From an uncultured Serinicoccus sp. (GTDB lineage Bacteria; Actinomycetota; Actinomycetes; Actinomycetales; Dermatophilaceae), in NCBI RefSeq assembly GCF_947500995.1, contig NZ_CANMUA010000010.1, positions 62,001 through 126,000 on the forward strand: 64,000 nt of DNA. Reading direction: 5' to 3'. Numbering within the stretch: the stretch's first letter is position 1; the number at the start of each line of letters is the position of its first letter. Under the pieces are notes generated by a model that was given only the letters and a program-made list of their open reading frames with translations, searched no databases and was not told the DNA's origin. The position numbers and the translations under genes were made by a program. Shown here piece by piece: positions 14,985-41,416 of the stretch.

Positions 14985-16151
14985 ATGAAGATCGCCATCG
15001 CCGGCACCGGATACGTGGGGCTCTCCCTCGCCGTCGTCCTGGCCCAGCACCACCAGGTGTCCGCGCTGGACATCGACCCGGCCAAGGTCGCGCTCATCAA
15101 CGAGCGGCGCAGCCCGATCCACGACCCGGAGATCAGCGCCTACCTCGCGACCCGGGAGCTGGCCCTGCACGCCACCACCGACGCGCAGGAGGCCTACGCC
15201 GACGCCGACTGGGTGGTGGTGGCGACGCCGACGGACTACGACACCGAGACCAACTTCTTCGACACCCGCAGCGTGGAGTCGGTCGTGGCCGACGTCCGCG
15301 CCACCAACCCTGACGCCGCCATCGTCATCAAGTCCACCATCCCCGTCGGCTACACCGAGCAGCTGCGCGCGGAGCACCCCGGCGCGACCATCATCTTCAG
15401 CCCGGAGTTCCTCCGCGAGGGCCGCGCCCTGCACGACAACCTGCACCCCTCCCGGGTCATCGTCGGCGACACCGGCGAGCGCGGGCAGGAGTTCGCAGAC
15501 CTTCTGCTGGAGGGCGCGCTGGACACCGACGTCCCGGTGCTGCTCACCCACTCCACCGAGGCCGAGGCCATCAAGCTGTTCGCCAACACCTACCTCGCGA
15601 TGCGGGTGGCGTACTTCAACGAGCTCGACACGTATGCCGTGACCCGCGGCCTCGACACCCGGCAGATCATCGAGGGCGTCGGTCTGGACCCGCGCATCGG
15701 CGCGCACTACAACAACCCCAGCTTCGGCTACGGCGGCTACTGCCTGCCCAAGGACACCCGCCAGCTGCTGGCGAACTACGGGACCGTCCCGCAGACCCTC
15801 ATCACCGCCGTGGTCGACGCCAACACGACCCGGATGGACTTCATCGCCGCCGACATCCTGGACCGGCACCCGCACCGGGTCGGGATCTACCGGCTCATCA
15901 TGAAGGCCGGCTCCGACAACTTCCGCGCCTCCAGCGTGCAGGGCGTCATGTCGCGCCTGCAGGCCCGCGGGGTGGAGATCGTCATCTACGAACCGTCCTA
16001 CGACCGCGACACCTTCCAGGGGTGCCGCGTCGTGCGCGACCTCGGCGCGTTCACGGACACGGCCGACGTCATCATCGCCAACCGTCTCGACGAGCACAGC
16101 GAGCAGTTCGGCGACAAGCTCTACACCCGCGACCTCTACGGGCGGGACTGA
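14985..16151 (+). CDS. ugd: UDP-glucose 6-dehydrogenase
   Basis: A 388-residue cytosolic enzyme that oxidises UDP-glucose twice with NAD+ to UDP-glucuronate. Visible are the N-terminal Rossmann motif AGTGYVG (residues 6-12), STIPVGYT, the SPEFLREG substrate loop, the [16 protein letters not shown] dimer helix and the catalytic cysteine in [10 protein letters not shown]. Length equals the short E. coli-type Ugd. ATG 14985 has AAGGAG at 14975-14980; CATACT at 14953-14958 may be the -10 box. It is the first gene of the polysaccharide region and is divergent from rpsF. Confidence 0.92.
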
Positions 16152-16184
16152 CCGCTCGACGCCGGCGACCCTCCGGGCGTTTGG

Positions 16185-16190
16185 CACGAT
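16185..16190 (+). promoter_or_regulatory. -10 element, leaderless promoter of the first acyltransferase
   Basis: CACGAT is followed by seven bases and then ATG 16198, so transcription is expected to start at the initiation codon. Confidence 0.4.
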
Positions 16191-16197
16191 GAGCCCC

Positions 16198-18270
16198 ATG
16201 CCGCGCCCGGACCCCACCACCGCACGGGGGCGTGCCCGACGGCGGGACATCGAGGGTCTGCGTGCCGTCGCCGTCCTCGCCGTGCTGCTCTACCACCTGC
16301 GCGTCCCGGGACTCGGCGGCGGCTTCGCCGGGGTCGACGTCTTCTTCGTCATCTCCGGCTTCCTCATCACCGGCATCCTGCTGCGCGAGATCGACCGGAC
16401 CGGCCGGGTGTCGCTGGGTGACTTCTGGGCCCGCCGGGCCCGGCGGCTGCTCCCGGCGGCCCTGGTGGTCGTCGCGGCCACCTTCGCCGCCGGCTGGGTC
16501 GTGCTGCCGACGAGCAGCCGTCCGGACCTGCTCGCCGACGTGCTCGGCTCCACGCTCTACGTCGTCAACTGGGTCCTGGCCGCCCGGTCGGTCGACTACC
16601 TCGCCGAGGGGGCGGGCGTGTCCCCGCTGCAGCACTACTGGTCGCTGGCGGTCGAGGAGCAGTTCTACCTGCTCTGGCCGCTCCTGGTCGTCGTCGGACT
16701 CGCGCTCGCCGCGCGCACCGGCACCTCCCCGCGCCGCCCCCTGGCCGTCGTGCTCGGCCTGGTCACCGCCCTGTCGCTGGGGTGGTCGGTGGTGGCGACC
16801 GCGCAGTCGCCGCAGACGGCATACCTCATCACCCCGACGCGCCTGTGGGAGCTGGGCGCCGGCGCCCTCCTGGCGTTCACCGTGCCCGCCCTGCGCCGGC
16901 TGCCGGCCCGGGCGGCGCAGGTCGCGGCGGCCGCCGGGCTCGCCCTCGTCCTGCTCACCGTGCTCGCCGTGGGTCCGGGCACCCCCTGGCCGGGGTCCGC
17001 CGCCCTGCTGCCGGTCGTCGGCAGCGCACTGATCCTCGCCGCCGGCACCTCCGCCACCCCCACGCTCGTGGGGCGGCTGCTCTCGGTGCCGCCGATGGTG
17101 TGGGTCGGCGGGTTGTCCTACGGCATCTACCTCGTCCACTGGCCGCTGCTGGTGCTCGTGGAGGAGCAGCGCGGCCCGCTGGGTCCGGCCGGTCTCGTCC
17201 TGGTCGGCGTGCTCACCGTGCTGCTGGCCTGGCTGCTGCGCCTGCTCGTCGAGGACCCGGTCCGCTACAGCGCCCACCTCGGCGTCCGCCCCGCGCGCTC
17301 GCTGCTCGCCGCCGGCACCGCCATGGCCCTGGTGACCGGGGCCGCCGGCGTGGCGTGGGCCGCCCGACCGACCCTGGGCGCCACCACGGCACCGGGCCCG
17401 GCCGCGCTCGTGGCCGACGCCACGGCCGAGGTCTGGGAGCCGGTGGGGCTGCCCCGGCGGGCCTACGACCGGGCGGGCCCGGTCCAGCCCGACCCGTCCC
17501 TGGCCCGGGAGGACGTGCCCGGCTACTACGCCGACGGCTGCCAGGTGCAGCAGGGGGTCGTGGTGCCGGACCCGACCTGCGTCTACGGGGACGTCGACGC
17601 GCCGACGCGCGTCGCCCTCTGGGGCGACTCCAAGCTCGGGCAGTACGCCTCCGCCCTGGAGGCGATCGCGCAGGCCGAGTCCTGGCGCCTCGAGCTCTAC
17701 CTCAAGAGCGCCTGCTCGCCCACCGTGTCCGGCGCGACCGAGCCGGAGTGCGACGCCTTCGGCCAGGAGGTGGTGCGGCAGCTGCTGGCCGACCCGCCGC
17801 ACCTCGTGCTCCTCGGCTCCGGCGGTTTCGAGGCGGCGGAGCGCTCGGGCATGGTCGAGGGGGCCAGGGCCCTCACCGACGCCGGGATCGACGTGGTCGT
17901 CGTCGACGACAACGCCCACCCCGACCACCAGGCCTACGAGTGCGCGGCCGAGCACCCGGAGGACCTGCTGGCCTGCGAGCGCCCTCCGCGGGGGACCTTC
18001 GGCCGGCCCCACCTGCGGGCCGTGCACGAGGCCACCGGCGCCCCGGTCATCGACCTCAACCCGTGGATCTGCCCGGAGGAGACCACCTGCCCGGTCGCCC
18101 TGGGCGGGCAGCTGGTCTACCGGCAGGGCAGCCACCTCACCGACACCTACGCCCGCTCCCTCACCCCCTTCCTCTACCGCGAGCTCAGCGCCCTGGGTCT
18201 CACCGAGGCGGCGCCGGGCGACATCGCGCTGGACGACGTGCCGCGCCAGCCCTCCGGAGGGAGACGATGA
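16198..18270 (+). CDS. OafA-type membrane O-acyltransferase with SGNH domain (copy 1)
   Basis: A 690-residue protein. Residues about 15-390 are an acyltransferase-3 membrane domain of about ten helices with the LLYHLRVPG histidine and the GFAGVDVFFVISGF signature. Residues about 430-690 are an extracytoplasmic SGNH domain: nucleophile in GDSK (476-479, Ser478) and catalytic histidine in GSHLT (His646). Such proteins acetylate extracytoplasmic sugars, peptidoglycan or wall polymers. The second SGNH motif reads GDSK rather than the commoner GDSH. ATG 16198 fits a leaderless start; ATG 16189 is also possible. Its stop overlaps the next paralogue as ATGA. Confidence 0.9.
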   Translation: MPRPDPTTARGRARRRDIEGLRAVAVLAVLLYHLRVPGLGGGFAGVDVFFVISGFLITGILLREIDRTGRVSLGDFWARRARRLLPAALVVVAATFAAGWVVLPTSSRPDLLADVLGSTLYVVNWVLAARSVDYLAEGAGVSPLQHYWSLAVEEQFYLLWPLLVVVGLALAARTGTSPRRPLAVVLGLVTALSLGWSVVATAQSPQTAYLITPTRLWELGAGALLAFTVPALRRLPARAAQVAAAAGLALVLLTVLAVGPGTPWPGSAALLPVVGSALILAAGTSATPTLVGRLLSVPPMVWVGGLSYGIYLVHWPLLVLVEEQRGPLGPAGLVLVGVLTVLLAWLLRLLVEDPVRYSAHLGVRPARSLLAAGTAMALVTGAAGVAWAARPTLGATTAPGPAALVADATAEVWEPVGLPRRAYDRAGPVQPDPSLAREDVPGYYADGCQVQQGVVVPDPTCVYGDVDAPTRVALWGDSKLGQYASALEAIAQAESWRLELYLKSACSPTVSGATEPECDAFGQEVVRQLLADPPHLVLLGSGGFEAAERSGMVEGARALTDAGIDVVVVDDNAHPDHQAYECAAEHPEDLLACERPPRGTFGRPHLRAVHEATGAPVIDLNPWICPEETTCPVALGGQLVYRQGSHLTDTYARSLTPFLYRELSALGLTEAAPGDIALDDVPRQPSGGRR

Positions 18271-20420
18271 CCGCCGCCACCGCGCCCCCGACCGGGGCCG
18301 TCTCCCCGGCCCCGGGGACCGCCCGCCTCCGCGGGGACATCGAGGGCCTGCGCGCGATCGCGGTCCTCATGGTCCTCGCCTACCACGTCGGGCTGCCCGG
18401 GTCGGGCGGGGGTTTCGCCGGCGTCGACGTCTTCTTCGTCATCTCCGGCTACCTCATCACCAGCCAGCTGGTGCGCGAGGCCCGGCGGGACGGACGCATC
18501 TCGCTGCCGCGCTTCTACGCCCGCCGGGCGCGCCGGCTGCTGCCGGCGGCGTCCCTGGTGCTCGTGGTCACGACGCTCGCGGGATGGCTGCTCCTGCCGC
18601 GGGGGCGGCACGCCGACCTCGGCACCGAGGTCCTCGCGGCGACGGGGTATGTCGTCAACTGGCTCCTCGCGTGGCGCGAGGTCGACTACCTCGCCGAGGA
18701 CCAGAACCCCTCCCTGGTGCAGCACTACTGGTCGCTCTCCGTGGAGGAGCAGTTCTACGTGGTGTGGCCGCTGCTCATCATCGCCGTGCTGTGGCTGGTC
18801 CGGCGTCAGCAGCTGCGGCTCCTTCCGCTGCTGACCCTGACGCTGACCGTCGTCGTCCTCGCCAGCTTCTGGTGGTCGGTCGTCCGGACCGCGGCCTCGC
18901 CGGGCGAGGCCTACTTCGCCACCACCACCCGGGTCTGGCAGCTGGGGGTCGGTGCGCTGCTCGTGCTCCTCACCTCACGGCTGGAGCGGTTGCCACGGAC
19001 CGCCCGGACGGTCCTGGCCGCCGCCGGGGTGGCCGGCATCGCCCTCACCCTCGTCACGGTCGACACGGCGACCCCGTGGCCGGGCAGCGCCGCCGCGCTG
19101 CCCACCCTCGCGACGGCGGCCGTCATCGCGGCCGGCCTCCACCCGGGCGGCTCCCCCGTCGGACGGCTGCTCGGGGTCGCGCCGCTACGCCTCGTGGGCG
19201 GGCTGTCCTACGGCCTCTACCTCTGGCACTGGCCGCTGCTCCAGCTGCTCGCCGAGCGGGTGCCGGAGGCCGGGCTGCCGGTCCGTCTCTGCGTGGCGCT
19301 CCTCGCGGTCCTGCTGTCCTGGCTGACGCTGCACCTCGTCGAGAACCCGCTGCGGTACTCCCCCGCCCTCACCCGCTCCCCCCGACCGGCCCTCCTGGCC
19401 GGCGCCGCGGCGATGGCCACCTCGGCCGCCCTGGCCGCCGCACTCGTGGCGAGCGCCCCCTCCCTGGAGGAGCCGGACGCCGGGGCGGTGCCGGGGTCGG
19501 TGGGGGCCCTGGCCCTGGTCGACCCGGCCAGTCGCGACGCCGCGCAGCTGGAGCTGGTCGACGACCCGGGGGCCGTGACCGGCCAGGTCGACCGACCCGT
19601 CCCCGACCCGGCCGTCGCCGACGAGGACATCTCGCTCGCCTACCGCGAGGGCTGCCAGGTCAGCACGAGCGGCACCGAGCTGCCCGACGAGCAGGACTGC
19701 ACCTTCGGCGACCCCGACGGAGACGTCGAGGTCGCCGTCGTCGGCGACTCCAAGATGGAGCAGTGGAGCTCGGCGCTGCACGCCATCGGGGTGCAGGAGG
19801 GCTGGCGGGTGCGCTTCTACACCAAGTCGGCGTGCGGCTTCGTCGCGGAGGGGCGCTCGCCGGAGTGCCACGACTACAACCGGATGCTCGCGCGGCACCT
19901 CGGGGAGCCCGAGCACGCCCCCGACCTCGTCCTCACCTCCGTGGGCCAGGGCTACCCCGCGGAGCTCGCCGGGTCCATGGTCGACCTGCTGCGGCCCGCC
20001 ACCGACCAGGGCGCCCGGGTCGTGCTCGTCGCCGACACCCCGCTGCCCGAGCCGCGCGGGGTCGCCGAGGGGGTCAGCAGCTTCGAGTGCCTGGACCAGC
20101 ACCGCGAGGACATCACGCCGTGCTGGAGCCCGGCCGCCCCCGCCTCGGGGACCCGTCTGCTGACCGAGGTGGCCGGCCGGCTCGACGCCCCGCTGGTGGA
20201 GCTGCTGCCCTGGGTCTGCCCCGCGCCCGAGCGGCTCGACGGGTGCGCGCCCGTCGTCGGCGGCGTCGTCGTCAACCGTCAGGGCAGCCACCTGACCGCG
20301 ACCTACGTGCGCTCGCTGACCCCGGTGCTCCACCACGAGCTCACCCGGCTCGGGGTGACGACGACCCCGCCGGAGGAGATCAGCTGGGAGCTGCCGCAGG
20401 ACCCGGCGCCGGGGCGCTGA
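18267..20420 (+). CDS. OafA-type membrane O-acyltransferase with SGNH domain (copy 2)
   Basis: A 717-residue paralogue of the gene before it, probably a tandem duplicate. The membrane domain carries LAYHVGLPG and GFAGVDVFFVISGY; the extracytoplasmic SGNH domain carries GDSK (493-496, Ser495) and GSHLT (His675). ATG 18267 overlaps the upstream stop, with GGAGG at 18256-18260. The two copies have diverged in their linker and SGNH parts, so they may acylate different positions of one polymer. It converges on the ATP-grasp gene seven bases away. Confidence 0.9.
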   Translation: MTAATAPPTGAVSPAPGTARLRGDIEGLRAIAVLMVLAYHVGLPGSGGGFAGVDVFFVISGYLITSQLVREARRDGRISLPRFYARRARRLLPAASLVLVVTTLAGWLLLPRGRHADLGTEVLAATGYVVNWLLAWREVDYLAEDQNPSLVQHYWSLSVEEQFYVVWPLLIIAVLWLVRRQQLRLLPLLTLTLTVVVLASFWWSVVRTAASPGEAYFATTTRVWQLGVGALLVLLTSRLERLPRTARTVLAAAGVAGIALTLVTVDTATPWPGSAAALPTLATAAVIAAGLHPGGSPVGRLLGVAPLRLVGGLSYGLYLWHWPLLQLLAERVPEAGLPVRLCVALLAVLLSWLTLHLVENPLRYSPALTRSPRPALLAGAAAMATSAALAAALVASAPSLEEPDAGAVPGSVGALALVDPASRDAAQLELVDDPGAVTGQVDRPVPDPAVADEDISLAYREGCQVSTSGTELPDEQDCTFGDPDGDVEVAVVGDSKMEQWSSALHAIGVQEGWRVRFYTKSACGFVAEGRSPECHDYNRMLARHLGEPEHAPDLVLTSVGQGYPAELAGSMVDLLRPATDQGARVVLVADTPLPEPRGVAEGVSSFECLDQHREDITPCWSPAAPASGTRLLTEVAGRLDAPLVELLPWVCPAPERLDGCAPVVGGVVVNRQGSHLTATYVRSLTPVLHHELTRLGVTTTPPEEISWELPQDPAPGR

Positions 20421-20426
20421 GCGGGC

Positions 20427-21548
20427 TCATCCGCACTGCGCGCAGGGTACGACGCGCGGCGCCCACGCCCCGGGGTCGGCCGAGCGGGAGACGTGCCCCT
20501 CGGGGTAGAGCTCGGGCATGGGCTGCTCGCCGTGCAGGATGCCCGGGGGCCGGCCGGCCACGAGGTCGAGCTCGAGGCGGCTGGCGGCCGCCTCCCACCC
20601 GAGACCCATCCGTTCGTCGTGGTCGGCGCGGAACGGCTGGCGACCACCCGGGGTCCGGGTGAGCTCGCCGAGCACGGCCCCCCGCTCGGTGCCGTAGAGA
20701 TCCACCCGGATGAAGGGCAGCCCGGTCGCGAGGGAGAGGTGCCGGGCCATCTCGACCATCTCCGGCAGGTCCGTCGGCACCGGGACGGAGGAGTCGTCCT
20801 CGCGCCCGATCATGACCGCGCCCAGCTCCGCCCCGTCCGCGTCGACGTACCGGTAGCCCATGGACCGCAGGTGACCGTGCCGGGAGACGCGCCGGAGCAT
20901 GACGTGCTGCACCTCCCCGTAGCTGACGTTGATCTTCACGTCGTCGGGGATCGGGCCTCCCCCGGGCTGACGGAGCACCTCCTCGGCGAAGAAGGGCCCG
21001 CTGATCCGGTGCTGCGCCGTGCGGGAGATGAAGTGCTCCCGCACCTCGGCGGCGCTGAGCGAGAGCACCCCGTCGAGGGTCTCGTAGCCGCCCCCGGCGA
21101 CCCGCCGCAGCGGCAGCACCCCATGGCTGCCGGCGCCCCCGTCGGACTTGACGACCACCTCGTCGGGAAGGGCGTCCAGGTCGATGCTCGCCGGGTCCTC
21201 CCACACCCCGAGGATGCGGGGGGTGGGGATGCCGTGGCTGGCGGCGAGGCGGTAGTTGCGCAGCTTGAACGGCACCTGGCGCAACGGGTGGCGTCGCCCG
21301 GGGTCGAGCTCGCGCAGCGCGACGGTCACCCGGCGCAGGGTCACGAGGTGCTGGGTGAAGCTGGAGCGCCGGGCGAGCTCGGCGGGGTCGACCAGGGTCG
21401 CCGACCAGTCCCTCTCGGCCGCCAGCTCCTGCTCCAGCGCCGTGCGTCGCGCCTCCAGCGCGCGGATCCGCTGGTTGCGGCGGCGCAGCTCGGCGTCGCG
21501 CTTCTCCAGGGGCGGGATGCGCCGGATGACCTCACGTCGCAGGTTCAT
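20427..21548 (-). CDS. TupA-like ATP-grasp ligase
   Basis: A 373-residue protein. Residues about 10-50 are a charged coiled coil (LEKRDAELRRRNQRIRALEA). The ATP-grasp part shows VVVKSDGGAGSHGV (glycine-rich loop, near residue 140), DDVKINVSYGEVQHVMLRR and the metal-binding end IRVDLYGTERGAVLGELTRTPGGR. The family is named after TupA of teichuronopeptide synthesis, where it is thought to join amino acids to a uronic polymer. Here it is coupled (ATGA at 21545-21548) to a glycosyltransferase gene in a cluster predicted to make uronic acids, which agrees. Substrate not provable from sequence. Confidence 0.78.
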   Translation of the reverse strand: MNLRREVIRRIPPLEKRDAELRRRNQRIRALEARRTALEQELAAERDWSATLVDPAELARRSSFTQHLVTLRRVTVALRELDPGRRHPLRQVPFKLRNYRLAASHGIPTPRILGVWEDPASIDLDALPDEVVVKSDGGAGSHGVLPLRRVAGGGYETLDGVLSLSAAEVREHFISRTAQHRISGPFFAEEVLRQPGGGPIPDDVKINVSYGEVQHVMLRRVSRHGHLRSMGYRYVDADGAELGAVMIGREDDSSVPVPTDLPEMVEMARHLSLATGLPFIRVDLYGTERGAVLGELTRTPGGRQPFRADHDERMGLGWEAAASRLELDLVAGRPPGILHGEQPMPELYPEGHVSRSADPGAWAPRVVPCAQCG

Positions 21549-24451
21549 GACCTCTCCTCGGTGGTGGGGGCCGTCGTGGCCTCGGTATGCCTGGGGGCCG
21601 CCCACCACACCCAGCCCGGCGGCGGTGCGCCCCACAGCCGGTGCGCGAGGGCCGTCGCGTCGCCCCCGGCCGGGCCGACCTCACCGGCCCGGTCGGCGGT
21701 GAGGGTCAGGCCGCCCTGCCGCAGGCGCACGCCTCGCACGCCGGAGGGCGCGCCGGCGAGCAGCGGCCCGGGGGTCCATGCCGGCCCGGGCGGGTCGGGC
21801 ACCTCGCGGACCAGCCATCCCCGCAGCTCGGCCCCGGTGAGCCCGGCGTGCTCCACCACGAGCTCGTCCGCGCGGGTGCCGTCGCCGGCGCTGCGCAGAG
21901 GGACCCGGACGGGCGAGGTCGCCGGCGCGTCCGCCTCCGCCGCCCCCTCGTCGTCCCCCGACAGGTGCGGCCGCAGACGGTCCACGAAGCCCGCGTGGCC
22001 GTAGCGCTCGCGCACGAGCGCGGCCGTGCGCTCGACGCGCTCGCGGTAGGCGCCCGGGTCGGCGGTGTAGCGCGCCACCAGGGCCTGCGCCTCCCCCGGC
22101 CCCGCGTAGTCGAAGAGGTCGCCGAAGGTGGGTCGGTGCTTGGGGTGGGCGATGACGAGGACGCCGCTGGCGGCCGCCTCGAGCAGGGTCCGGCCGAAGG
22201 CCTCGTGGGCGTCCGGGTTGTCGAGGTAGACGTAGAAGTCCAGGCCGGCGAGGAAGGGCCGCACGTCCTCCGTCGTGGCCGGCAGGACCGTCCACCCGGC
22301 CGGCTCCCCACCCGGGGCGCCGGCGGCGGCACGCAGCGCGGCCACGGTCTGCTCCCCGCCGAGGACCCGCACCTCGTGGCCGGGACCGAAGGCATACCCC
22401 CGCCGCAGCTCCTCCCACGTCGGCGGGAACTTGATCCGGTCGTCCCGGGAGTGCCGTCCGACCACCACCGTGCCCGACGCACCGGGCGGCCGGTCGGTGG
22501 GCCGCACCGCCCAGGCGTCGGCGTCGATGAGCCCGGGGTTGTCCCAGGGGGTGAGCACCACCTCCGGGTCCTGCTCGCGCAGCACCCGGCGGATGGTCGG
22601 GCTCTGCGGCACCCAGGTGACCGGCGCCCCGAAGAGCTCGCCGGCGCGCCGGGTGACGTCGGTGACGACGTACCGCTGGTCGCTGCCGTCGGGCTCCAGC
22701 GGTCCCTGGTTGGCCATGACGAGCAGCTGGCGCACGCGCGCGGCCCGGGCGAGCACCGGGGGGTACTGCAGGATGGGCGGGTAGCGCACCAGGAGCACGT
22801 CGATGTCGACGTCGTCGTCCGGGAGCACCCAGGTGACCGCGCCCGAGCGCACCAGGTCGGTGAAGGCGGCGGCCAGCGGCTGGTCCTGGGCGGACATGAA
22901 GCGCAGCGCCTCCAGGTGCATGACCCCGACCTCCAGCCCGGCCTCGAGGGCCGCGCGGATCTCCTCCAACATGGAGCGCTGGGGGCCGCCGAACTTGCGC
23001 CAGTCCCCGGCGACGACGAGGTCGAGCCGCGTCGGCCGGGCATCGAGCAGCGGGTGGGTGGGCCGGGCCCAGCGCAGCGGCTCCGGGAGGCGACGCGACG
23101 CCTCGGGGTCGAGGTATGCCGTGTCCTCGCCGCCGCGGACGGCGTCGTGCCAGGGCGTGTAGAGCGCCTTGTAGAGCTGGCGTGCAGGGTGACGGTAGCC
23201 GTTGGCGAACTCCTCCGAGGACAGCGTGGCGGACCCGCCGCGCAGGATGGTCGTGGTCTCCTCGACGTCGCGGACCACCGGCCCGAACGCCGCCTCCAGG
23301 CGGCGGGTGAACTCGGTGTCGGCGCCCTTGCGGGTGGGGTCGAAGAAGCCGATGCGGTTCATCACGGGCAGGCGCCGGAAGAGCACGGTCGCGGCGGAGG
23401 CGAAGCGGGGCAGGTAGCCGGGCCGGGTGAGGACGAGGTCGGGGGTGACGCGCACGCCCTGCGCCCGGGTCGCGAGCAGAGCGGGGTCGGCCAGCAGCGG
23501 CGCCACGCAGACCTCGAGCGTCTGCGGGTGCCACCAGTCGTCGGAGTCGACCACCACGACGTAGTCGCCGCGGGCCAGGCGCAGGGCCGTGTTGCGGGCG
23601 CGGTAGGTGCCGCCGTTGACCGCCTTGCGGACCACCCGGACGCGGGCGTCGAGCCGCTCCACCTCGGCCAGCAGACCGGCCGTCTCCTCGTCCCCGGAGG
23701 CGTCGTCCACGACGAGCAGCTCCAGGTCGGACCAGCTCTGCGCGAGGACCGAGCGGACGGCCGTGAGCAGCGCCGGCCCGGGGCGGTAGCTGCTCATGAG
23801 CACGGTCACCAGACCGCTCCCGCCCATCGGCTCGACGGCCCGGGTGCTCAGCGTGTCGAGGTGCGGGGCGGCACCGTCCTCGGGTGCCCGGACGGGGACG
23901 AGCCGGCCGCTGCCGAGCGCGGCGGAGAAGGCCGCCGCCCACTCCTCGCCCTGCCCGACGGCAGCGGGGTGGAGCCGGGGGTGCAGGGCGTCGGCCCGCA
24001 CCGACGCGGCCACGCCGGGCCGGACCCGGCGGTCGGCGACGAGGTCCACGGCGCCGCCGGGGTCGCCCCCCAGGACGCGCAGCTGGGCCAGCATCTCGAC
24101 GTGCTCCCGACGCAGCGTCGCCGCGTGGGGGGAGGTCAGGAGCTGCTCGAGCAGCCCGCGCGCCACCGCGACGTCCTGCGGGTCACCCGTCTGGACGGCG
24201 AGGACACGGGCGTGGTCGGCCACGCCGAGCGGGTCGGCGTCGTCGGGGACCCCGGCCCGGGGGCCGCGGTGCGCCCACGCGGCCAGGTCAGCGGGGAGGT
24301 GGCCGGGCCAGGCCGCCTCGGCCAGCACCTCCCGGCTGTGGACGGACCGGGTGCGCAGCGCCGTGGCGACCAGCGCCCTGGAGCGTCGGCCGGCGATGCG
24401 GGCGTGGTCGGCCGCCACCCCCGTGGTGGTGGCGCGAGGGGTCGTGCTCAC
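21545..24451 (-). CDS. Two-domain glycosyltransferase (GT2 plus GT-B)
   Basis: A 968-residue protein. Residues 1 to about 205 are unassigned. A GT2 domain follows (LVTVLMSSYRPGPALL near 212, VDDASGDEE, and DSDDWWHP near 302 for metal and sugar-nucleotide binding). From about 480 a GT-B domain resembling GT4 runs to about 850 (AGDWRKFGG, then FGRTLLEAAASGVLVIAHPKH near 750). The last 110 residues are unassigned. Two catalytic modules suggest it adds two different sugars, or polymerises a disaccharide. GTG 24451 overlaps the stop of the upstream small membrane gene as GTGA. Confidence 0.82.
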   Translation of the reverse strand: MSTTPRATTTGVAADHARIAGRRSRALVATALRTRSVHSREVLAEAAWPGHLPADLAAWAHRGPRAGVPDDADPLGVADHARVLAVQTGDPQDVAVARGLLEQLLTSPHAATLRREHVEMLAQLRVLGGDPGGAVDLVADRRVRPGVAASVRADALHPRLHPAAVGQGEEWAAAFSAALGSGRLVPVRAPEDGAAPHLDTLSTRAVEPMGGSGLVTVLMSSYRPGPALLTAVRSVLAQSWSDLELLVVDDASGDEETAGLLAEVERLDARVRVVRKAVNGGTYRARNTALRLARGDYVVVVDSDDWWHPQTLEVCVAPLLADPALLATRAQGVRVTPDLVLTRPGYLPRFASAATVLFRRLPVMNRIGFFDPTRKGADTEFTRRLEAAFGPVVRDVEETTTILRGGSATLSSEEFANGYRHPARQLYKALYTPWHDAVRGGEDTAYLDPEASRRLPEPLRWARPTHPLLDARPTRLDLVVAGDWRKFGGPQRSMLEEIRAALEAGLEVGVMHLEALRFMSAQDQPLAAAFTDLVRSGAVTWVLPDDDVDIDVLLVRYPPILQYPPVLARAARVRQLLVMANQGPLEPDGSDQRYVVTDVTRRAGELFGAPVTWVPQSPTIRRVLREQDPEVVLTPWDNPGLIDADAWAVRPTDRPPGASGTVVVGRHSRDDRIKFPPTWEELRRGYAFGPGHEVRVLGGEQTVAALRAAAGAPGGEPAGWTVLPATTEDVRPFLAGLDFYVYLDNPDAHEAFGRTLLEAAASGVLVIAHPKHRPTFGDLFDYAGPGEAQALVARYTADPGAYRERVERTAALVRERYGHAGFVDRLRPHLSGDDEGAAEADAPATSPVRVPLRSAGDGTRADELVVEHAGLTGAELRGWLVREVPDPPGPAWTPGPLLAGAPSGVRGVRLRQGGLTLTADRAGEVGPAGGDATALAHRLWGAPPPGWVWWAAPRHTEATTAPTTEERS

Positions 24452-24822: not shown

Positions 24823-24956
24823 GCGACGGACCTTCCTGCACGGGGTGGGGTGTCGGAGTTCCGGCACCGGGCCAGACGGTGTTCACTGTACCCCGGGGCC
24901 GGGCGCCCCGGCCCGGCACGACGCACCCGAGAGCCCGAGGGAGAGCTGTCCACCCC

Positions 24957-34325: not shown

Positions 34326-34402
34326 GGTGGCCAGTCTCCTTCACGACAAGAGGGTGGGTCGGGGGCGCCCGCCGGGCGCGTCCCGAGCATAACGCCCTGT
34401 GC

Positions 34403-34408
34403 CATGAT
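34403..34408 (+). promoter_or_regulatory. -10 element, leaderless promoter
   Basis: CATGAT is followed by seven bases and ATG 34416. It contains the alternative ATG 34404, which is therefore more likely promoter than start codon. Confidence 0.45.
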
Positions 34409-34415
34409 CGCCGGT

Positions 34416-35480
34416 ATGTCCTCGGTGCTCCTGCTGTCCAGCAACGGCGCGGGGATGGGGCACCTGACGCGGCTGCTGGCGTACGCGCGCCGGATGCCGC
34501 CGGAGGTCCGCCGGCACGTGGTGTCGCTGTCGCAGGCGGTGCCGGTCGTGCAGGCCGAGGGCCTCCCCTGGGAGTACCTCGCCTCCCAGGGCGCCTCCGG
34601 GCTGCGGCCGGCGGCGTGGCGGCGCCTCTTCGCCGAGCAGGTCGGCGAGATCCTGCACCGGGTCGACCCCGACGTGCTCGTCTTCGACGGCACCCACCCC
34701 TACTCCGGGCTGGACGAGGCCCTCGCCGGCCACCCCCGGACCCGCGCCGTGTGGTCGCGGCGGGGGATGTGGCGCGCGGGCCGCAACAGCGACCAGCTGG
34801 AGAAGGCGGCCTGGTTCGACGCGGTGGTCGAGCCCGGCGACCTGTCGGCCGCCGCGGACCGCGGGGCGACGGCCACGGTGCCCGACGAGGCGGTCCGACG
34901 GGTCCCTCCGGTCACCCTCGTCGACGCCGGCCAGGCGCACGAGCGGGCTGCCTCGCGCGCGGCCCTCGGTCTGCCCGCGGAGGGCACCCTCGCGCTGGTC
35001 TCGCTGGGGGCCGGCAACATCAACGACACCGACGACGAGGTGGGGGCGGCCGCGGCGGCGCTGACGGCGCGGGGGGTCGGCGTCTGCGTCACCGCCCCCG
35101 CGATCGCCGAGCGCGCGTATGCCGGTGACGTCCACCTCGTGCGGCACTTCCCGCTGTCCGAGCACTACCGGGCCTTCGACCTCGTCGTCGCGGCGGCCGG
35201 CTACAACTCCTTCCACGAGTCCCTGCGGCTCGGGGTGCCGACCCTGCTCGTCCCCAACACGCACACCTCGCTGGACGACCAGGAGGCCCGGGCGCGCGAG
35301 GCCGCCCGGCAGGGCTGGGCCCTCGTCGCCCCCACCCTCACGGGTGGCGCGGCCGGGCCCCTCGTCGACGAGCTGCTGGCGCGCGGCGGGGAGCTCGCTA
35401 CGGCTGCGCTGGACGCCGACCCGGGCAACGGGGCCCAGGCCGCCGCCGACCACATCCTGGCCGTGGCGGGAGCGGCATGA
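34416..35480 (+). CDS. MurG/GT28-like glycosyltransferase
   Basis: A 354-residue GT-B enzyme. The N-terminal glycine-rich loop SSNGAGMGHLTRLL (about residues 8-21) and the C-terminal donor motif AGYNSFHESLRLGVPTLLVP (about 262-281) are those of the GT28/MurG group that uses UDP-sugars such as UDP-GlcNAc. Start chosen by the -10 element seven bases upstream. Divergent from wecC; its stop overlaps the next gene as ATGA. Likely builds the repeat unit or linkage sugar of the polymer. Confidence 0.82.
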   Translation: MSSVLLLSSNGAGMGHLTRLLAYARRMPPEVRRHVVSLSQAVPVVQAEGLPWEYLASQGASGLRPAAWRRLFAEQVGEILHRVDPDVLVFDGTHPYSGLDEALAGHPRTRAVWSRRGMWRAGRNSDQLEKAAWFDAVVEPGDLSAAADRGATATVPDEAVRRVPPVTLVDAGQAHERAASRAALGLPAEGTLALVSLGAGNINDTDDEVGAAAAALTARGVGVCVTAPAIAERAYAGDVHLVRHFPLSEHYRAFDLVVAAAGYNSFHESLRLGVPTLLVPNTHTSLDDQEARAREAARQGWALVAPTLTGGAAGPLVDELLARGGELATAALDADPGNGAQAAADHILAVAGAA

Positions 35481-36103
35481 CCCCGACCCCCGCCCAGCGA
35501 CGCCGCCAGCAGACGCTCGCCCGGTGGAGCCGCCGGCTGCCCGGCTACCGCCTGGCCCTGGAGGAGGTCCTCCCCCGCGTGCGCCGCAGCGCGACCCTGT
35601 CCGACCTGGCGTGGCGCGTCTTCGCCCCGCGCCACGGCGCCGGCCAGGTCGACGTGCCGATGCGGGCCGGGCGCGCCGTCGGCGGCGCCGACGTCTCCCG
35701 GCTGCCGGTGGTGGGGGTCCTGGCGACCGGGCTGGACGAGGCCGCCACGGAGCGGCTGATCGACGAGGTGTGCGGCCTGCAGCGCGAGCTGCTCTCCTTC
35801 CGGCCGCTCTTCGTGCTCGACCTCCCCGTGTTCGGCGCCGCCCGCCGGCACGACGTCCCGGTGGAGCTGGTGGTGCCGCGCGCGGTCTTCGCCCGCGGCG
35901 CGCACGGCGACCCGGACGGGTGGGAGGACCACGTGGCCCGGCGGGTGGCCGGCATCGTCGACCACTACCAGCTGTGGCACCTCGCCCGCGCCGACGAGCG
36001 GGGGCTGGACCCGGCGGACGAGCGGCTCCTGCGCGTGCTGGGCGAGCGGCTGCCGGGCGAGCTGCAGGTGCACGCCGCGGACGAGGGGCAGGGGGCCGGG
36101 TGA
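35477..36103 (+). CDS. Uncharacterised protein in polysaccharide operon
   Basis: A 208-residue soluble protein I do not recognise. The first 55 residues are basic and helical. The middle has a regular alternating pattern (VSRLPVVGVLATGLDEAATERLIDEV, then FRPLFVLDLPVFGAARRHDVPVELVVP), which looks like a single Rossmann-type half with two beta-alpha units. The end is acidic. No catalytic motif is obvious. It is coupled by ATGA to the MurG-like gene and by GTGA to wecB, so it is surely co-expressed with them and probably a partner or half-domain of a glycosyltransferase. Confidence 0.75.
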   Translation: MTPTPAQRRRQQTLARWSRRLPGYRLALEEVLPRVRRSATLSDLAWRVFAPRHGAGQVDVPMRAGRAVGGADVSRLPVVGVLATGLDEAATERLIDEVCGLQRELLSFRPLFVLDLPVFGAARRHDVPVELVVPRAVFARGAHGDPDGWEDHVARRVAGIVDHYQLWHLARADERGLDPADERLLRVLGERLPGELQVHAADEGQGAG

Positions 36104-37203
36104 CCGGGCGCCCGCTCGTGCTGCACGTCACGGGCGCCCGTCCCAACTTCCCCAAGGCGGCGCCGGTCCTCCAGGCGCTCCGTGCCCACGACGTGGAGCA
36201 GCTGCTCGTGCACACCGGGCAGCACTACGACGACCGGATGAGCCAGGTCTTCTTCACCGAGCTCGGGCTGCCCCGGCCGGACGTCGACCTGGGCATCGGC
36301 TCCGGCACCCACGCGGGGCAGACGGCGGCGGCCATGGTCGGTCTCGAGGAGGTCATGACCACGCGGCGCCCGGCCCTGGTGGTCGTCTACGGCGACGTCA
36401 ACTCCACCGTGGCGGCGGCGCTCGTGGCCGCCAAGCTGCACCTCCCGGTCGCGCACGTCGAGGCCGGGCTGCGCTCCTTCGACCGGACGATGCCCGAGGA
36501 GGTCAACCGGGTGGTCACCGACCGGCTCAGCGACCTGCTGCTGGTGACCTGCGCCGACGCGGCCGACAACCTGCGCGCCGAGGGGGTCGACCCGGCCACC
36601 GTGCACCTGGTGGGCAACCCGATGATCGACACCCTCCTGCGGCACCGGGGCCGTCTGGACCAGGCCCGGGCACGCAGCGAGGTGGGGCTGGCCGAGGAGG
36701 GCGACTACGTCGTGGCCACCCTGCACCGCCCGGGCAACGTCGACGACCGGGAGCACGCCCGGCGGGCGGTGGCCACGCTGCACCAGGTGGCCGACCACTG
36801 CCCGGTGGTGCTGCCGATGCACCCGCGCAGCCGTCCGCGGCTGCTCGACGTCGGGCTGCTCGACCACCCGGGGATCCGGCCGGCCGACCCGCTGGGCTAC
36901 CTCGGTTTCCTCTCCCTCGTGCAGGGCGCCTCCGTCGTGGTGACCGACTCCGGGGGCGTCCAGGAGGAGACCACCGTCCTCGGGGTGCCCTGCCTCACCC
37001 TGCGGCCCAACACCGAGCGCCCGGTGACCATCACCCACGGCACCAACGCCCTGACCACCCACGCCGAGCTCCCCGCGGCGGTGGCGAGCCGCCTGGCCGC
37101 GGGGCGGCCCCCCGCGGGGAGCACTCCGGTGCCACCGCTCTGGGACGGCCACGCCGGTCCGCGGATCGCCGCCGTGCTGGCCGGGTCGCTGGGGGCGACC
37201 TGA
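36100..37203 (+). CDS. wecB: UDP-N-acetylglucosamine 2-epimerase (non-hydrolysing)
   Basis: A 367-residue cytosolic enzyme interconverting UDP-GlcNAc and UDP-ManNAc. TGARPNFPKAAPV near the N-terminus, HTGQHYDDRMS, GDVNST, HVEAGLRSFDRTMPEEVNR and the C-terminal DSGGVQEET with the following TERP segment are the family signature; length is normal. GTG 36100 overlaps the preceding stop. It supplies substrate for the WecC-type dehydrogenase. Confidence 0.95.
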   Translation: MTGRPLVLHVTGARPNFPKAAPVLQALRAHDVEQLLVHTGQHYDDRMSQVFFTELGLPRPDVDLGIGSGTHAGQTAAAMVGLEEVMTTRRPALVVVYGDVNSTVAAALVAAKLHLPVAHVEAGLRSFDRTMPEEVNRVVTDRLSDLLLVTCADAADNLRAEGVDPATVHLVGNPMIDTLLRHRGRLDQARARSEVGLAEEGDYVVATLHRPGNVDDREHARRAVATLHQVADHCPVVLPMHPRSRPRLLDVGLLDHPGIRPADPLGYLGFLSLVQGASVVVTDSGGVQEETTVLGVPCLTLRPNTERPVTITHGTNALTTHAELPAAVASRLAAGRPPAGSTPVPPLWDGHAGPRIAAVLAGSLGAT

Positions 37204-39969
37204 GTGGAGGTGGACGAGGCGGCGGTGCTGCTGGGCGCGCACCCGCACGGCTACCTCCTGCTCGTGGGGGACGCGCAGGGCGGGGCGCCGGCCGACTGCC
37301 GGGGATGGCGGCAGCTCCCCGGCCTCCTGCCCGGCAGCACCCTGCACCTGCAGCCGCGCACCGTCGTCGGCCACGCCAGGGGGCCCTTGGACGACCGTGA
37401 CGTGGTCCTCCTGGGGCACCCGGTGGACGTCGCCGCCGGGATCACCGACCCCACGGCCATCGCGAGCCGGCTCGCCACGACCTGGGCCCGGTCGGGGACG
37501 GACGCGATGGTCCGGGAGGCGGCCGACCTGGGGGGACGCTGGACCCTGCTGGCCGGCCGCCGGCCGCCGCCCGGCGCGGGCACCGGCGTGGCCGAGGCCC
37601 GTCCGCCCGCGGCCGCCCACCGCGAGGTGGAGCTCCTGGTCGTCCCCGACACCCACGCCAGCCAACCGGTCCACGTGGGCCGCGTCGCCCGCCGCGCCGC
37701 CGTCGCGAGCGCGCCCGCTCTCGTCGCCGCTGCCCTCGGCCTCGACGAGGACGAGCGCGCGCTGGATCTCCTCGACCTGCTGCGCGAGCGCAGGTCCGGC
37801 CGGGTCACCTACCTGCCGGGGCTGCGCACGGCATACCTCGGGGTGGAGGCGCTCGTCCCCAACTCGCTGCTGCGCCTGAGCCTCGACGCGGACGGCCTCG
37901 AGGTCGAGCAGCGACGATTCTGGCCCTTCCGTCCCCGGGTGGCGACCGAGGACGTGGACGCGGTGTATGCCGCGTTCCGGGAGCGGATCACCGCCCACAC
38001 GGCGCTCCTCGCGGGTCTGGGACGACCCACGGTCAGCCTCACCGGCGGCCTGGACAGCCGGGTGACCGCCGCCGTGGCCGCGCCCGCCCTGCGGGGCGCC
38101 GGCGGGTTCGCCTTCACCTACCTCAACCCGCGGGACGCCGCCCGTGCCCCGGCCGCCGTCGAGGACGTGACCGTGGCGCGGGAGGTGGCCCGGGCGCTCG
38201 GCCTGCCGCACCGCGTCCTGCGCTGGCGACAGCCTCCGGCCCACGGGACCTTCGACGTCCTGCACCGTCGCACGTACGCCCCCCTGCTGCCCTCGCGGGG
38301 CGCGGCGCACGCCATGTGGGCCGACCTGCCCACCGACCTCGTGCAGCTGCAGAGCAACGGCGGGGAGACCGGGACGACCTTCCTCCGGCACCGACCCGAG
38401 CACGTCCTCACGCCACGACGGCTCACCGAGCTCTACCTCGGCAGCGGCGCCGACGTCGGCGACGACCTCGTCGAGGAGCTCTACGGCGGCTACCTCGACC
38501 GGGTGCCGATGGACGCGGACGCGCTGCTGGGCTTCGACGACTACGACGTCCTCTACTGGGAGCAGCGGATGGGGCGGTGGGGGTGGCACAAGTTCGTGGA
38601 CGGGGACTTCGGGCACCGCATCCTGCTGCCCTTCAACGACCGCGTCCTGCTGGAGACCATGCTGTCGCTGCCCTACCCGCTGCGCCACGACCGTCTGCTC
38701 CTCGAGCGGCTCGTCGCCGAGGCCGGGGTGCGGCGTGTCCCGGGGGGCGCCCAGTCCACCGTCGCCCGCCCGAGCCGCACGCGAGACACCCGTGGCCCGG
38801 GCGCCTCGCGGCTCCGCAGGGGCGCGGGGCGGCTGCGCCGGGCGGTGCGACGTCGGGTCGGGGGCCCGCCGCGGCCCGGGACCCACGGGGGGTCGGTGGT
38901 CACCGCACGGACGGACCGGTCCACCGCCTCCCGCGACTCCGCGCCCCGCGCGGGCGCACGCTCCTTCGCCGTGCTGCCGCCCGGGTCGGCCGGGCGGCCC
39001 CCCGAGGGCCTGCGCCGGCACCCGTTGCCGGACGGCGGGCTGAGCCTGTGGGCCCACCCGGGCCTGCCCCGCGCCGTCACCGGCGACGCCTCGGCCTGGG
39101 TCCTCGTGCTGGGTGACCCCGTGGACGTCCCCGACGGGCTCGACAGCGCCGCGGAGGTGGCGCACCTGCTGCACCGGCTCCTCGCCGACGGGCCCGGCCT
39201 CACCGCCGCGACCGAACGGGCCGCGGCGCTGTGCGGGTCGTGGACCGTGGTCCTGGGCGGGCCGGAGGGTGGTCGGGCCCTCACCGACCCGCTGCCCAGC
39301 TGGGACCTGCGGCTCGGCGCGGAGGCCACGGCCCTGGTGGGCGACCCCGCGCTGCTCAGGGCGCTCGGGGCCGGTGAGGGCGTCGCGGTGGGTGGCGACC
39401 GGCTGGCGCGCACGACCACCCCGGGCCCGGGGGTGCGGTGGCAGCCGGACCGCCTGCCCGACCTCGGCGCTCTCGCCACCGCGTCGGGCACCGACGGGAC
39501 GCACCGGCTGGCCGCGCACGCCCGGCTGCTCGACCGACGGGGCCGGCCGGTGCTGGGGCTGGGTGGTGAGGCCGGCCTCCTGCGCCTCCTGCCGCTGCTG
39601 ACCGGTCCCCGCGAGGGGTCCGGTGCTGCGGGGTCCTGTGCTGCGGGGTCCCCGGTCGAGGCGGTGACGTGGTGGCACCCGGCCAGCACCGACAGCACCC
39701 GGGCCATGATCAGCGGTGGGGACCTGGCCTTCCGGGCGGGGATCGACCAGCGGCTGGTCCTGGTCGACGACGCGGACCCGGCCGAGGTGGCCCGTGTCCT
39801 GGACCGGGCGCTCGCGGCCGAGGAGGTCCTCTGGCTCGGCCACCGACCGGGCGAGGCCGCGGGCCGGCGGGTGCGCTCCCTGCTCGCGGCGCCGGGGTCG
39901 ACCCGCCGGGTGGCCCTGCCCTGGAGCGACCGGCTCCTGCCCCTGCTGCCGGGCGCCGCACTAGAGTGA
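37204..39969 (+). CDS. Tandem asparagine-synthase-like protein with degenerate second copy
   Basis: A 921-residue protein starting directly after the wecB stop. The first half (1 to about 560) has an N-terminal glutaminase-fold-like region without Cys2, then an asparagine-synthase-type ATP-pyrophosphatase with SLTGGLDSR (278-286). A basic linker (about 520-580) leads to a second half that repeats the layout: GHPVDV (71-76) matches GDPVDV (637-642), GGRWTLL matches GSWTVVL, and GGLDS (281-285) is matched by GGEA (787-790), so the second nucleotide loop has lost its DS pair. Without Cys2 it cannot use glutamine in the usual way. In similar clusters such proteins amidate sugar uronic acids; a beta-lactam-synthetase-like role is another possibility. 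Confidence 0.72.
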   Translation: MEVDEAAVLLGAHPHGYLLLVGDAQGGAPADCRGWRQLPGLLPGSTLHLQPRTVVGHARGPLDDRDVVLLGHPVDVAAGITDPTAIASRLATTWARSGTDAMVREAADLGGRWTLLAGRRPPPGAGTGVAEARPPAAAHREVELLVVPDTHASQPVHVGRVARRAAVASAPALVAAALGLDEDERALDLLDLLRERRSGRVTYLPGLRTAYLGVEALVPNSLLRLSLDADGLEVEQRRFWPFRPRVATEDVDAVYAAFRERITAHTALLAGLGRPTVSLTGGLDSRVTAAVAAPALRGAGGFAFTYLNPRDAARAPAAVEDVTVAREVARALGLPHRVLRWRQPPAHGTFDVLHRRTYAPLLPSRGAAHAMWADLPTDLVQLQSNGGETGTTFLRHRPEHVLTPRRLTELYLGSGADVGDDLVEELYGGYLDRVPMDADALLGFDDYDVLYWEQRMGRWGWHKFVDGDFGHRILLPFNDRVLLETMLSLPYPLRHDRLLLERLVAEAGVRRVPGGAQSTVARPSRTRDTRGPGASRLRRGAGRLRRAVRRRVGGPPRPGTHGGSVVTARTDRSTASRDSAPRAGARSFAVLPPGSAGRPPEGLRRHPLPDGGLSLWAHPGLPRAVTGDASAWVLVLGDPVDVPDGLDSAAEVAHLLHRLLADGPGLTAATERAAALCGSWTVVLGGPEGGRALTDPLPSWDLRLGAEATALVGDPALLRALGAGEGVAVGGDRLARTTTPGPGVRWQPDRLPDLGALATASGTDGTHRLAAHARLLDRRGRPVLGLGGEAGLLRLLPLLTGPREGSGAAGSCAAGSPVEAVTWWHPASTDSTRAMISGGDLAFRAGIDQRLVLVDDADPAEVARVLDRALAAEEVLWLGHRPGEAAGRRVRSLLAAPGSTRRVALPWSDRLLPLLPGAALE

Positions 39970-39975
39970 GCGGCG

Positions 39976-41226
39976 ATGGCTGACACGACCGCCGCGCCCG
40001 GCCCCGGCGAGGACCTCGACGGCGGCGGGTCCGCACCCGGTCCCGTCGACCCGGCACCGGCGGCGCGCGACCTCGTCGTCTCCTACTGCTTCCCGCCGTT
40101 CGTCGACACCTCCGCGATCGTCGCCGCCAAGCGGGTGCGCGAGATGGGCCGGCCGGTCGACGTGCTGCAGAACCGCATGTCGGCCGAGCGCCGGACCGAC
40201 CGCGGCCTGGCCCGCATCGCCGACCACCTCGTGGTGCGCCGCCAGCAGCTGCCCAGCCCCACCCTGTTCTCCTCGTGGCGCGGGATCACCGGCTTCACCC
40301 GACGCGGCGTGCAGCGGGCGCTGGAGTGGGACCGTGAGGGGGAGGGCTACCTCCGGATGTACAGCCGCGCGCACTTCACGGCCAGCCACGTGCTCGCGGC
40401 CCGGCTCGCCGTGCTGCGCCCCGGCGTGGAGTGGACGGCGGAGTTCTCCGACCCCCTCTCCCGGGACGTCACCGGCGCGGTCCGGCACGCCCCGGTCCGG
40501 GAGGACGCCCTGCTGGACACCCTGCGCGAGGGTATGCGGTCTGCGGGCTTCACCCCGCCGGCCAGCGGGAACTCCTTCGAGTGGGCCGAGCAGCTCGCCT
40601 TCGCCCTCGCCGGCACCCTGGTCTTCACCAACGAGCACCAGCGCGAGCTCATGCTCGAGCGGGTCGAGGACGCCGAGCTGGTCGACCGGGTCCGGGAGCG
40701 CAGCCGGGTCTCCCCCCACCCGACCCTCCCCGAGGAGTTCTACGCGATGGCCGACCCGGAGTACCCGCTCCCCGGTGACCGGCGGCACATCGGCTACTTC
40801 GGCAACTTCTACGCGACCCGGGGCATGGGGAGCGTCCTCGCCGCCCTGGAGGCCCTGCCGCAGCGGCTGCGCGACGAGGTCTGCCTGCACGTGTTCGCCG
40901 GGCGGCCCGACGAGGTCGAGCAGGAGGTCCACCGGCGGGGCCTGGAGGACTGCGTGCGCACCGGGCCCTTCCTCGGCTACCTCGAGTTCCTGGCGATGTG
41001 CCGGCGGATGGACGTCCTGCTGGTGAGCGACGCCCTCACCCAGGGCCTGCTCGCCACGAACCCGTTCCTGCCGAGCAAGTGGAGCGACTACCGCGGCAGC
41101 GGCACCCCGGTGTGGGGGATGGTCGAGCCCGGGTCGGTCCTGGACGCCCAGCCGCTGGACCACCGCTCACCGGTGGACCACACGTCGGCCGCCGTGCAGG
41201 TGCTCGCCGACATCGCCCGCTCCTAG
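39976..41226 (+). CDS. Probable glycosyltransferase (GT-B fold)
   Basis: A 416-residue soluble protein. VVSYCFPPFVDTSAIVAAKRV near residues 33-53 is a GT4-like acceptor loop. The donor half has HIGYFGNFYATRGMGSVLAALE and HVFAGRP, then MCRRMDVLLVSDA and PFLPSKWSDYRGSGTPVWG, which replaces the usual E-x7-E region but resembles donor-binding segments of distant GT4 proteins. ATG 39976 follows TAGAGT (39962-39967) by eight bases, so it may have its own leaderless promoter as well as read-through from upstream. Confidence 0.7.
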   Translation: MADTTAAPGPGEDLDGGGSAPGPVDPAPAARDLVVSYCFPPFVDTSAIVAAKRVREMGRPVDVLQNRMSAERRTDRGLARIADHLVVRRQQLPSPTLFSSWRGITGFTRRGVQRALEWDREGEGYLRMYSRAHFTASHVLAARLAVLRPGVEWTAEFSDPLSRDVTGAVRHAPVREDALLDTLREGMRSAGFTPPASGNSFEWAEQLAFALAGTLVFTNEHQRELMLERVEDAELVDRVRERSRVSPHPTLPEEFYAMADPEYPLPGDRRHIGYFGNFYATRGMGSVLAALEALPQRLRDEVCLHVFAGRPDEVEQEVHRRGLEDCVRTGPFLGYLEFLAMCRRMDVLLVSDALTQGLLATNPFLPSKWSDYRGSGTPVWGMVEPGSVLDAQPLDHRSPVDHTSAAVQVLADIARS

Positions 41227-41278: not shown

Positions 41279-41359
41279 TCTGAGGTGAGCCGGGGAGCAT
41301 CTGAGGTAGCCGGCGGGTGCAGGTCAGGGAGATCGCCCGATGTCCCGGCCTACCTCAGA
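41279..41359. promoter_or_regulatory. Three copies of a TCTGAGGT(AG) motif, possible operators
   Basis: TCTGAGGT occurs at 41279-41286 and again at 41300-41307 on the plus strand, starts exactly 21 bases apart (two helical turns); both are followed by AGCCGG with or without one extra base. An inverted copy, CTACCTCAGA, lies at 41350-41359. They occupy the otherwise empty gap 41227-41416 upstream of a small gene and a LuxR-family regulator, so an operator is plausible; the binding protein is unknown. Confidence 0.45.
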
Positions 41360-41416
41360 GGCCGACTCTGGACGTGTCGGACCCACCCGGGTCCTGCTGT
41401 CGAGAGAGGACGTCGC

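Follow-up and report, generated by a model that had tools for sequence, protein, structure and literature searches.

How many kinds of enzyme act on the carboxyl groups of a putative acidic envelope glycan, and by which chemistry, is the question raised by a gene cluster of an uncultured Serinicoccus sp. The cluster occupies positions 14985-41226 of a 64,000-nucleotide stretch of DNA, analysed here as a whole (the window), from a genome of 3,805,170 bases, and it contains both a gene for a TupA-like ATP-grasp ligase and one for a tandem protein resembling asparagine synthetase B (AsnB), termed AsnT here. A preliminary description had listed Ugd, WecB, a WecC-type dehydrogenase, a TagGH-type exporter, seven glycosyltransferases, O-acyltransferases and the two ligase types, all of which were recovered by gene calling and Pfam/NCBIfam searches; the gene starts given below come from a simple in-house gene caller and are approximate. 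Our reading, to which we assign a probability of about one half, is that the locus makes, exports and decorates a uronic-acid envelope glycan whose carboxyl groups are turned into amides by the TupA-type ligase and probably also by a glutaminase-less AsnB-family synthetase. Among named relatives, Serinicoccus comes closest at this locus, with values over the first half of AsnT of 86% for S. chungangensis (L002) and 88% for an uncultured Serinicoccus (L006).

AsnT (37204-39969, forward strand) belongs to the AsnB superfamily by fold and active-site motif. Its first copy (37204-38763) comprises a glutaminase-like domain without N-terminal cysteine and an ATP-pyrophosphatase domain with the motif SLTGGLDSR. 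The predicted structure (predicted local distance difference test, pLDDT, 79) matched carbapenam synthetase, beta-lactam synthetase, TsnB9 and human ASNS in Foldseek, with the best E-value (2.5e-17) for carbapenam synthetase 1q15 and the best template modelling (TM) score, 0.61, for TsnB9. A search of the PDB with the whole AsnT as a single sequence found no chain; a 13-row AsnT profile matched 7ylz, a hydroxyamidotransferase, at E 1.4e-7. The two-domain fold match is accompanied by the SxGGxDS-like PP-loop motif of copy 1, which is intact as SLTxGxD in all 25 proteins covering it, with Ser changed to Thr at the first motif position.

The cysteine of glutamine-dependent enzymes is missing. None of the 13 aligned AsnT proteins has an N-terminal cysteine, no cysteine is invariant among them, and none stands at position 2 in the 25 called AsnT proteins, two of which are without a sure start. 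Of seven AsnB proteins taken from elsewhere in the phylum, six start with CGI (the seven are those with an SGGxDS frame among nine loci; L046 and L053 gave none). Thus, AsnT is a member of the AsnB superfamily by fold and motif, yet it lacks the N-terminal cysteine that helps to define glutamine-dependent amidotransferases. The comparison drawn in the preliminary description with the uronate amidotransferases of O-antigen loci, such as WbpS, is not supported by this result, nor by the score of AsnT against PF00733 (Asn_synthase), which is 18.0 bits for the whole protein and 19.7 bits for copy 1 alone, below the cut-off of 21.

A conventional division of labour, in which AsnT would use glutamine to form primary uronamides in the manner of WbpS and TupA would add amino acids as in teichuronopeptide, is quite unlikely for the same reasons. 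It would agree with the position of AsnT in the wecB operon of the window and with the AsnB homologues WbpS, WbqG and PGN_1234, which are described as making uronamides (PMC7468200, PMC3684757); in addition, an AsnB-like gene is reported from the locus of b-Cool, a glycan that carries two uronate amides (PMC12407052). From these described loci, AsnB-type genes do serve uronic-acid glycans. Processing could still provide a cysteine in two of the 13 AsnT proteins, where Cys precedes the invariant GYL and a cleaved N-terminus may expose it; ten others, the window protein among them, have His at this position and one has Gly. Also, no poly-glutamate genes were recognised among the locus proteins scanned.

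With the glutaminase cysteine missing, AsnT would have to draw on ammonia or some other amine, or form a ring in the manner of the beta-lactam and carbapenam synthetases. These two synthetases are marked by a Tyr-Glu catalytic pair. AsnT is probably an ATP-pyrophosphatase amide synthetase of one of these sorts, and a role as second carboxyl-modifying enzyme, by chemistry other than the glutamine-dependent one, is plausible. AsnT was also considered as the cell's asparagine synthetase. This was rejected, since it was not found in 5 of 31 same-genus genomes (Serinicoccus/Ornithinimicrobium group, the window's own included), of which G011, G023 and G028 are near-complete, and lacks the N-terminal cysteine. 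An ordinary asparagine synthetase was not found in the window's genome, the sole PF00733 match over the cut-off being GMP synthase.

The tandem structure claimed for AsnT was borne out in that two related copies are present, and not in that the second is degenerate. Behind a linker, the C-terminal half (38764-39969) holds a second AsnB-like stretch (profile E 3.7e-8) which is related to copy 1 (E 4e-6) and has lost the PP-loop, SLTGGLDSR being absent. Across the genus, 12 genomes have the second copy fused to the first and 7 have it as a separate gene downstream; it was not seen in 6, including G003, in which AsnT is split over two frames; in G018, where a contig end cuts AsnT, it is not covered. 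The separate gene overlaps the first by 4 bases in 6/7 genomes, and the fused proteins measure 769-949 amino acids, with a second profile match in 11/12. An intact PP-loop was found in none of the 7 separate or 12 fused second copies. Outside the genus, AsnT was found in 0/27 genomes at E 1e-10, and over the phylum, with three candidates scored per genome, its profile gave weak matches only (best 84 bits vs 470-770 for the best of the genus genomes). From its sequence, AsnT looks like a separate, genus-confined AsnB-type subfamily, often with a degenerate copy of its own.

The TupA-like protein (20427-21548, reverse strand) proved to be a genuine family member, as had been proposed. It scores 60.2 bits against PF14305 (cut-off 25), and in an alignment of 30 rows, of which nine are genus proteins and the other 21 come from distant genomes, K134, E189, R281, D283 and E295 are invariant and D203 (29/30), K205 (28/30) and T297 (28/30) nearly so; we take these to be ATP-grasp residues. 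The predicted structure (pLDDT 82) is nearest to LysX/ArgX, D-Ala-D-Ala ligase (Ddl), RimK and PsnB. Carboxyl amide formation of the TupA type is fairly likely. An overlap of 4 bases with the neighbouring GT2 fusion gene was seen for 10 of the 24 TupA genes of the genus (23 and that of the window). The placement of the TupA-like gene differs among loci: it may adjoin the GT2 fusion, stand between u208 and AsnT, or lie upstream of rpsF. Several TupA-like genes can occur together, three in a row in L013 (6114-9783), two in G010 and two flanking AsnT in G009, which suggests several amide ligases on one polymer.

The supply of uronic acids and the means of export are both represented, in agreement with the preliminary description, and a uronic-acid polymer with ATP-binding cassette (ABC) export is likely from the gene content. 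Ugd (14985-16151, forward) is of the UDP-glucose 6-dehydrogenase type, with three UDPG_MGDP_dh domains and a GGYC motif, at 591 bits against PRK15057, below the cut-off of 757. WecB (36100-37203, forward), a non-hydrolysing UDP-GlcNAc 2-epimerase, exceeds the TIGR00236 equivalog cut-off (288.9 vs 210 bits). The WecC-type nucleotide sugar dehydrogenase (33066-34325, reverse) reaches 427 bits against TIGR03026 (cut-off 190), carries a GGHC motif and has Cap5O as the nearest solved chain; UDP-N-acetylmannosaminuronic acid (UDP-ManNAcA) is its likeliest product. Relatives with at least 80% identity over the best piece occur in all 25 loci, with or without adjoining wecB. The TagH-like ABC ATPase (31239-32168, reverse) has TarH and TagH as nearest solved chains and stays under the TagH equivalog cut-offs; the TagG/Wzm-like permease (32155-33069, reverse) matches PF01061 and stays under the galactan-permease equivalog cut-off. 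Among 10 proteins scanned, the Bacillus subtilis Tua equivalogs were not reached (TuaD 142.5 vs 700, TuaG 71.8 vs 400, TuaC and TuaH far under their cut-offs). Elsewhere in the genome there are four LCP ligases and four PF00953 proteins, an observation that is not specific.

The wecB gene lies inside only 12/26 AsnT loci, and 13/25 untruncated ones are without it. Its loss from the locus was considered as an argument against UDP-ManNAc and rejected, because all 26 AsnT genomes hold a WecB match somewhere, 24 of them over the curated cut-off; G009 and G024 have fragments only, and the window's genome has three matches. Thus, a supply of UDP-ManNAc is not refuted.

The distribution of both ligase genes was analysed in the 31 genomes, and stretches of 27 (25 with AsnT, plus G011 and G028; G005, G020 and G023 were left out) were compared with the window. 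AsnT was found in 26/31 genomes, the TupA-like gene in 25/31 and both in 21/31. TagG, TagH and the WecC-type gene accompany AsnT in 25/26 loci, the 26th (G019) being cut by a contig end, and a TupA-like gene lies inside 19/26 AsnT stretches. In 18 of the 21 genomes with both genes they are within 20 kb, a count from related and thus not independent genomes, with a 53-residue AsnT piece near TupA used for the distance in G018; in the other three they lie 20.1 kb (G017) or 308 kb (G004) apart or on different contigs (G019). As the gene order recurs across the genus, the gene set is more than chance, and as the locus is syntenic in 25/26 and TupA present in 19/26 stretches, the pairing is recurrent in the group. 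The pairing of AsnT and TupA, as noticed in the preliminary description, is therefore a real, recurrent feature of the group, with both genes as optional additions to a shared export core.

Two stretches depart from this layout. The central part has been exchanged in G028 (L111, L112), where TagG, TagH, WecC and the TupA-like gene are kept and other glycosyltransferases are present, and AsnT and WecB are absent from the stretch. In Ornithinimicrobium sp. INDO-MA30-4 (L011, identical to G009), WecC, one TupA-like gene, the GT2 fusion, GT2 and also the WecB of that genome are fragmented, through sequencing errors or decay.

Outside the genus the pairing was not found. TupA occurs in 0/5 other genomes of the family and 1/22 of the order, and PF14305 in 18 of 396 phylum genomes sampled, the own genome counted. 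From the 17 others, 20 TupA stretches were obtained, some of them short and one (L128) without any profile match, TupA included. A Ugd- or WecC-type gene lies in 7/20 (a raw count without random-window control) and an AsnB-like neighbour in 0/20. The neighbourhood check proposed earlier thus upheld the link to WecC and TagGH within the genus, and outside it the link between TupA and AsnB-like genes fell away.

Both enzymes might instead merely share the locus and modify other targets, such as a small molecule, an amino sugar or a lipid. The best structural E-values of AsnT do belong to carbapenam and beta-lactam synthetases, which are secondary-metabolite enzymes acting on small molecules, and AsnT and TupA are both optional. 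We regard this as rather unlikely, as AsnT occurs with TagG, TagH and WecC in 25/26 loci and tupA overlaps a glycosyltransferase gene in many.

Several observations weigh against an amidated uronic-acid glycan. AsnT remains under the PF00733 cut-off, AsnB-family structures match it at moderate TM scores only (0.48-0.61), and the matches of the TupA model reach a TM of only about 0.4. The WecC-type dehydrogenase stays under every equivalog cut-off, the best WecC models giving 249 and 245 bits vs cut-offs of 750 and 459. The two ligases also occur separately: AsnT without TupA in 5/26 AsnT genomes (G001, G002, G014, G025, G026) and TupA without AsnT in 4/25 TupA genomes (G005, G011, G020, G028), with G005 and G020 only 84% and 75% complete. 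In G011 the remaining locus is intact and 66-96% identical; AsnT seems to have been lost cleanly, since wecB and the next called gene are one base apart. Whole-cell sugar assays may miss uronates. In the excerpt of the family description consulted (PMC6113628), the major whole-cell sugars are arabinose, rhamnose and xylose, and uronic acid is unnamed.

If the locus does make an amidated uronic-acid glycan, the following sequence of steps can be proposed. Ugd would provide UDP-glucuronic acid, and WecB, from the locus or from elsewhere in the genome, would together with the WecC-type enzyme provide UDP-ManNAcA. Enzymes of the GT2, GT4 and GT28 types would assemble the chain in the cytoplasm, attached to a lipid carrier, and TagGH would export it. 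Before export, the TupA-like ligase would activate a uronate carboxyl as acyl phosphate and join it to an amine, as Cj1438C does with glucuronic acid (GlcA); family, fold and conserved residues are those of such a ligase, and its substrate is what we infer. AsnT copy 1, encoded in the apparent wecB operon, would activate a carboxyl as acyl adenylate and give a second kind of amide, a chemistry which we infer from the observed fold and motif. Copy 2 would be a probable pseudo-enzyme partner with a structural or regulatory role, and the AT3-SGNH enzymes would acylate the chain. A more specific proposal is put forward only tentatively: AsnT would represent a new, genus-confined AsnB-type subfamily that has lost glutamine hydrolysis, works as an active/dead pair (two adjoining genes or a fusion) and forms an amine-linked amide or an intramolecular lactam on a ManNAcA-containing polymer. 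Together with TupA this would give one polymer two chemically distinct carboxyl caps, and their gain or loss from species to species would act as a surface switch.

The genes are arranged around two compact operons that diverge from a 78-base gap (34326-34403). The leftward operon runs from wecC through tagG and tagH to a GT4 glycosyltransferase gene (30109-31242, reverse), with successive overlaps of 4, 14 and 4 bases. The rightward one holds a GT28/MurG-like glycosyltransferase gene (34404-35480; PF04101, 32 bits), the gene of a 208-residue protein (u208, 35477-36103) whose position is conserved, wecB, asnT and a further glycosyltransferase gene (39976-41226), all forward, with two overlaps of 4 bases followed by gaps of 0 and 6 bases. 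The last protein is a probable GT-B glycosyltransferase with a weak match (Glycos_transf_1, E 0.1), and its position is kept in several loci. A PDB sequence search with the GT28-like protein gave nothing useful. To the left of the operons lie Ugd, two AT3-SGNH acyltransferases (16189-18270 and 18267-20420, forward; both PF01757 and PF19040), tupA, which overlaps by 4 bases the gene of the GT2 fusion glycosyltransferase (21545-24451, reverse; additional weak GT4 match), a 124-residue protein (24448-24822, reverse) whose relatives adjoin the GT2 fusion in other loci, a GT2 glycosyltransferase (24957-27035, forward) and a GT4 glycosyltransferase (27025-30159, forward) with a C-terminal GT4 domain and a long uncharacterised N-terminal half. 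Pfam gave nothing for the 124- and 208-residue proteins. The seventh glycosyltransferase, a GT4 enzyme found by family scan and locus comparison (44773-46881, reverse), falls beyond the interval 14985-41226.

For a single short repeat, seven glycosyltransferases and two dehydrogenases are a large number, and AsnT and TupA lie 16.6 kb apart on opposite strands in the window. The interval could hence encode two glycans, a ManNAcA polymer with AsnT (30109-41226) and a GlcA-containing or other glycan with TupA (14985-30159). We give this little credence, since TupA directly adjoins AsnT in other species and a single exporter pair, with no second one, was recognised among the interval proteins scanned.

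In the surroundings, the asnT operon is followed by a large LuxR-type regulator (41317-44712, forward; AAA_16, TPR, GerE), with relatives at the same place in L003 and G012 only among the compared loci. A third AT3-SGNH acyltransferase (51615-53924, reverse) lies outside the interval; in many relatives its neighbours are the genes of a penicillin-binding protein and of Ino1. An Mrp-type Na+/H+ antiporter operon (5222-11570, reverse; MnhA/B, C, D, E, F and G domains) is found a short way upstream of the locus; in Bacillus, acidic wall polymers and antiporters are both described as working in alkaline pH homeostasis (PMC8153356). Below it, a 1028-residue protein (2049-5135, reverse) has no Pfam match at E 1e-10.

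An AsnB-family enzyme without glutaminase function that serves a glycan locus, and often has a degenerate sister copy, would represent a new use of beta-lactam-synthetase-like chemistry. Carboxyl caps would alter the charge and recognition of the polymer, and a teichuronic acid (TUA)-like polymer is reported as the receptor of a Streptomyces umbrella toxin (PMC13274773). G011, without AsnT, and the five genomes with AsnT and no TupA offer natural comparisons.

Searches of a collection of open-access papers brought up none in which a TupA-like ligase and an AsnB-like gene occur together in a single glycan locus. PF14305 is named after TupA of Bacillus halodurans, whose teichuronopeptide is an acidic wall polymer (PMC8153356); the window differs in that poly-glutamate genes were not recognised among the scanned locus proteins. 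The Streptomyces utr loci are described as making TUA-like polymers with an aminouronic acid; they include an acyltransferase and vary between species. They make ManNAc3NAcA, and the main text of that paper contains no ATP-grasp or ABC-transporter term (PMC13274773). With WbpS, WbqG, PGN_1234 and Bordetella b-Cool, as described, the locus shares an AsnB-superfamily gene among those for a uronic-acid glycan; AsnT differs by its missing N-terminal cysteine and as a genus-confined subfamily with a degenerate second copy. The two-domain AsnB-superfamily fold connects AsnT to carbapenam synthetase, beta-lactam synthetase and TsnB9, and to 7ylz also by profile, but these act in secondary metabolism and the structural matches have 14-17% identity. 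As a polymer, the teichuronic acid of Micrococcus luteus, with its reported ManNAcA-glucose repeat (PMC3005890), offers a parallel. For the TupA-like ligase, the parallel is Cj1438C of Campylobacter jejuni, described as a TupA-like domain fused to GT2, and its approximately 60% identical homologue HS19.11C. Both link serinol phosphate through an amide to the C6 carboxylate of GlcA, ahead of the addition of the following sugar, and Cj1438C also uses ethanolamine phosphate (PMC11800379, PMC13276843). Likened by description and not by sequence, both systems couple a TupA-like ligase to a GT2 enzyme within a glycan locus, there as one polypeptide and here as two overlapping genes.

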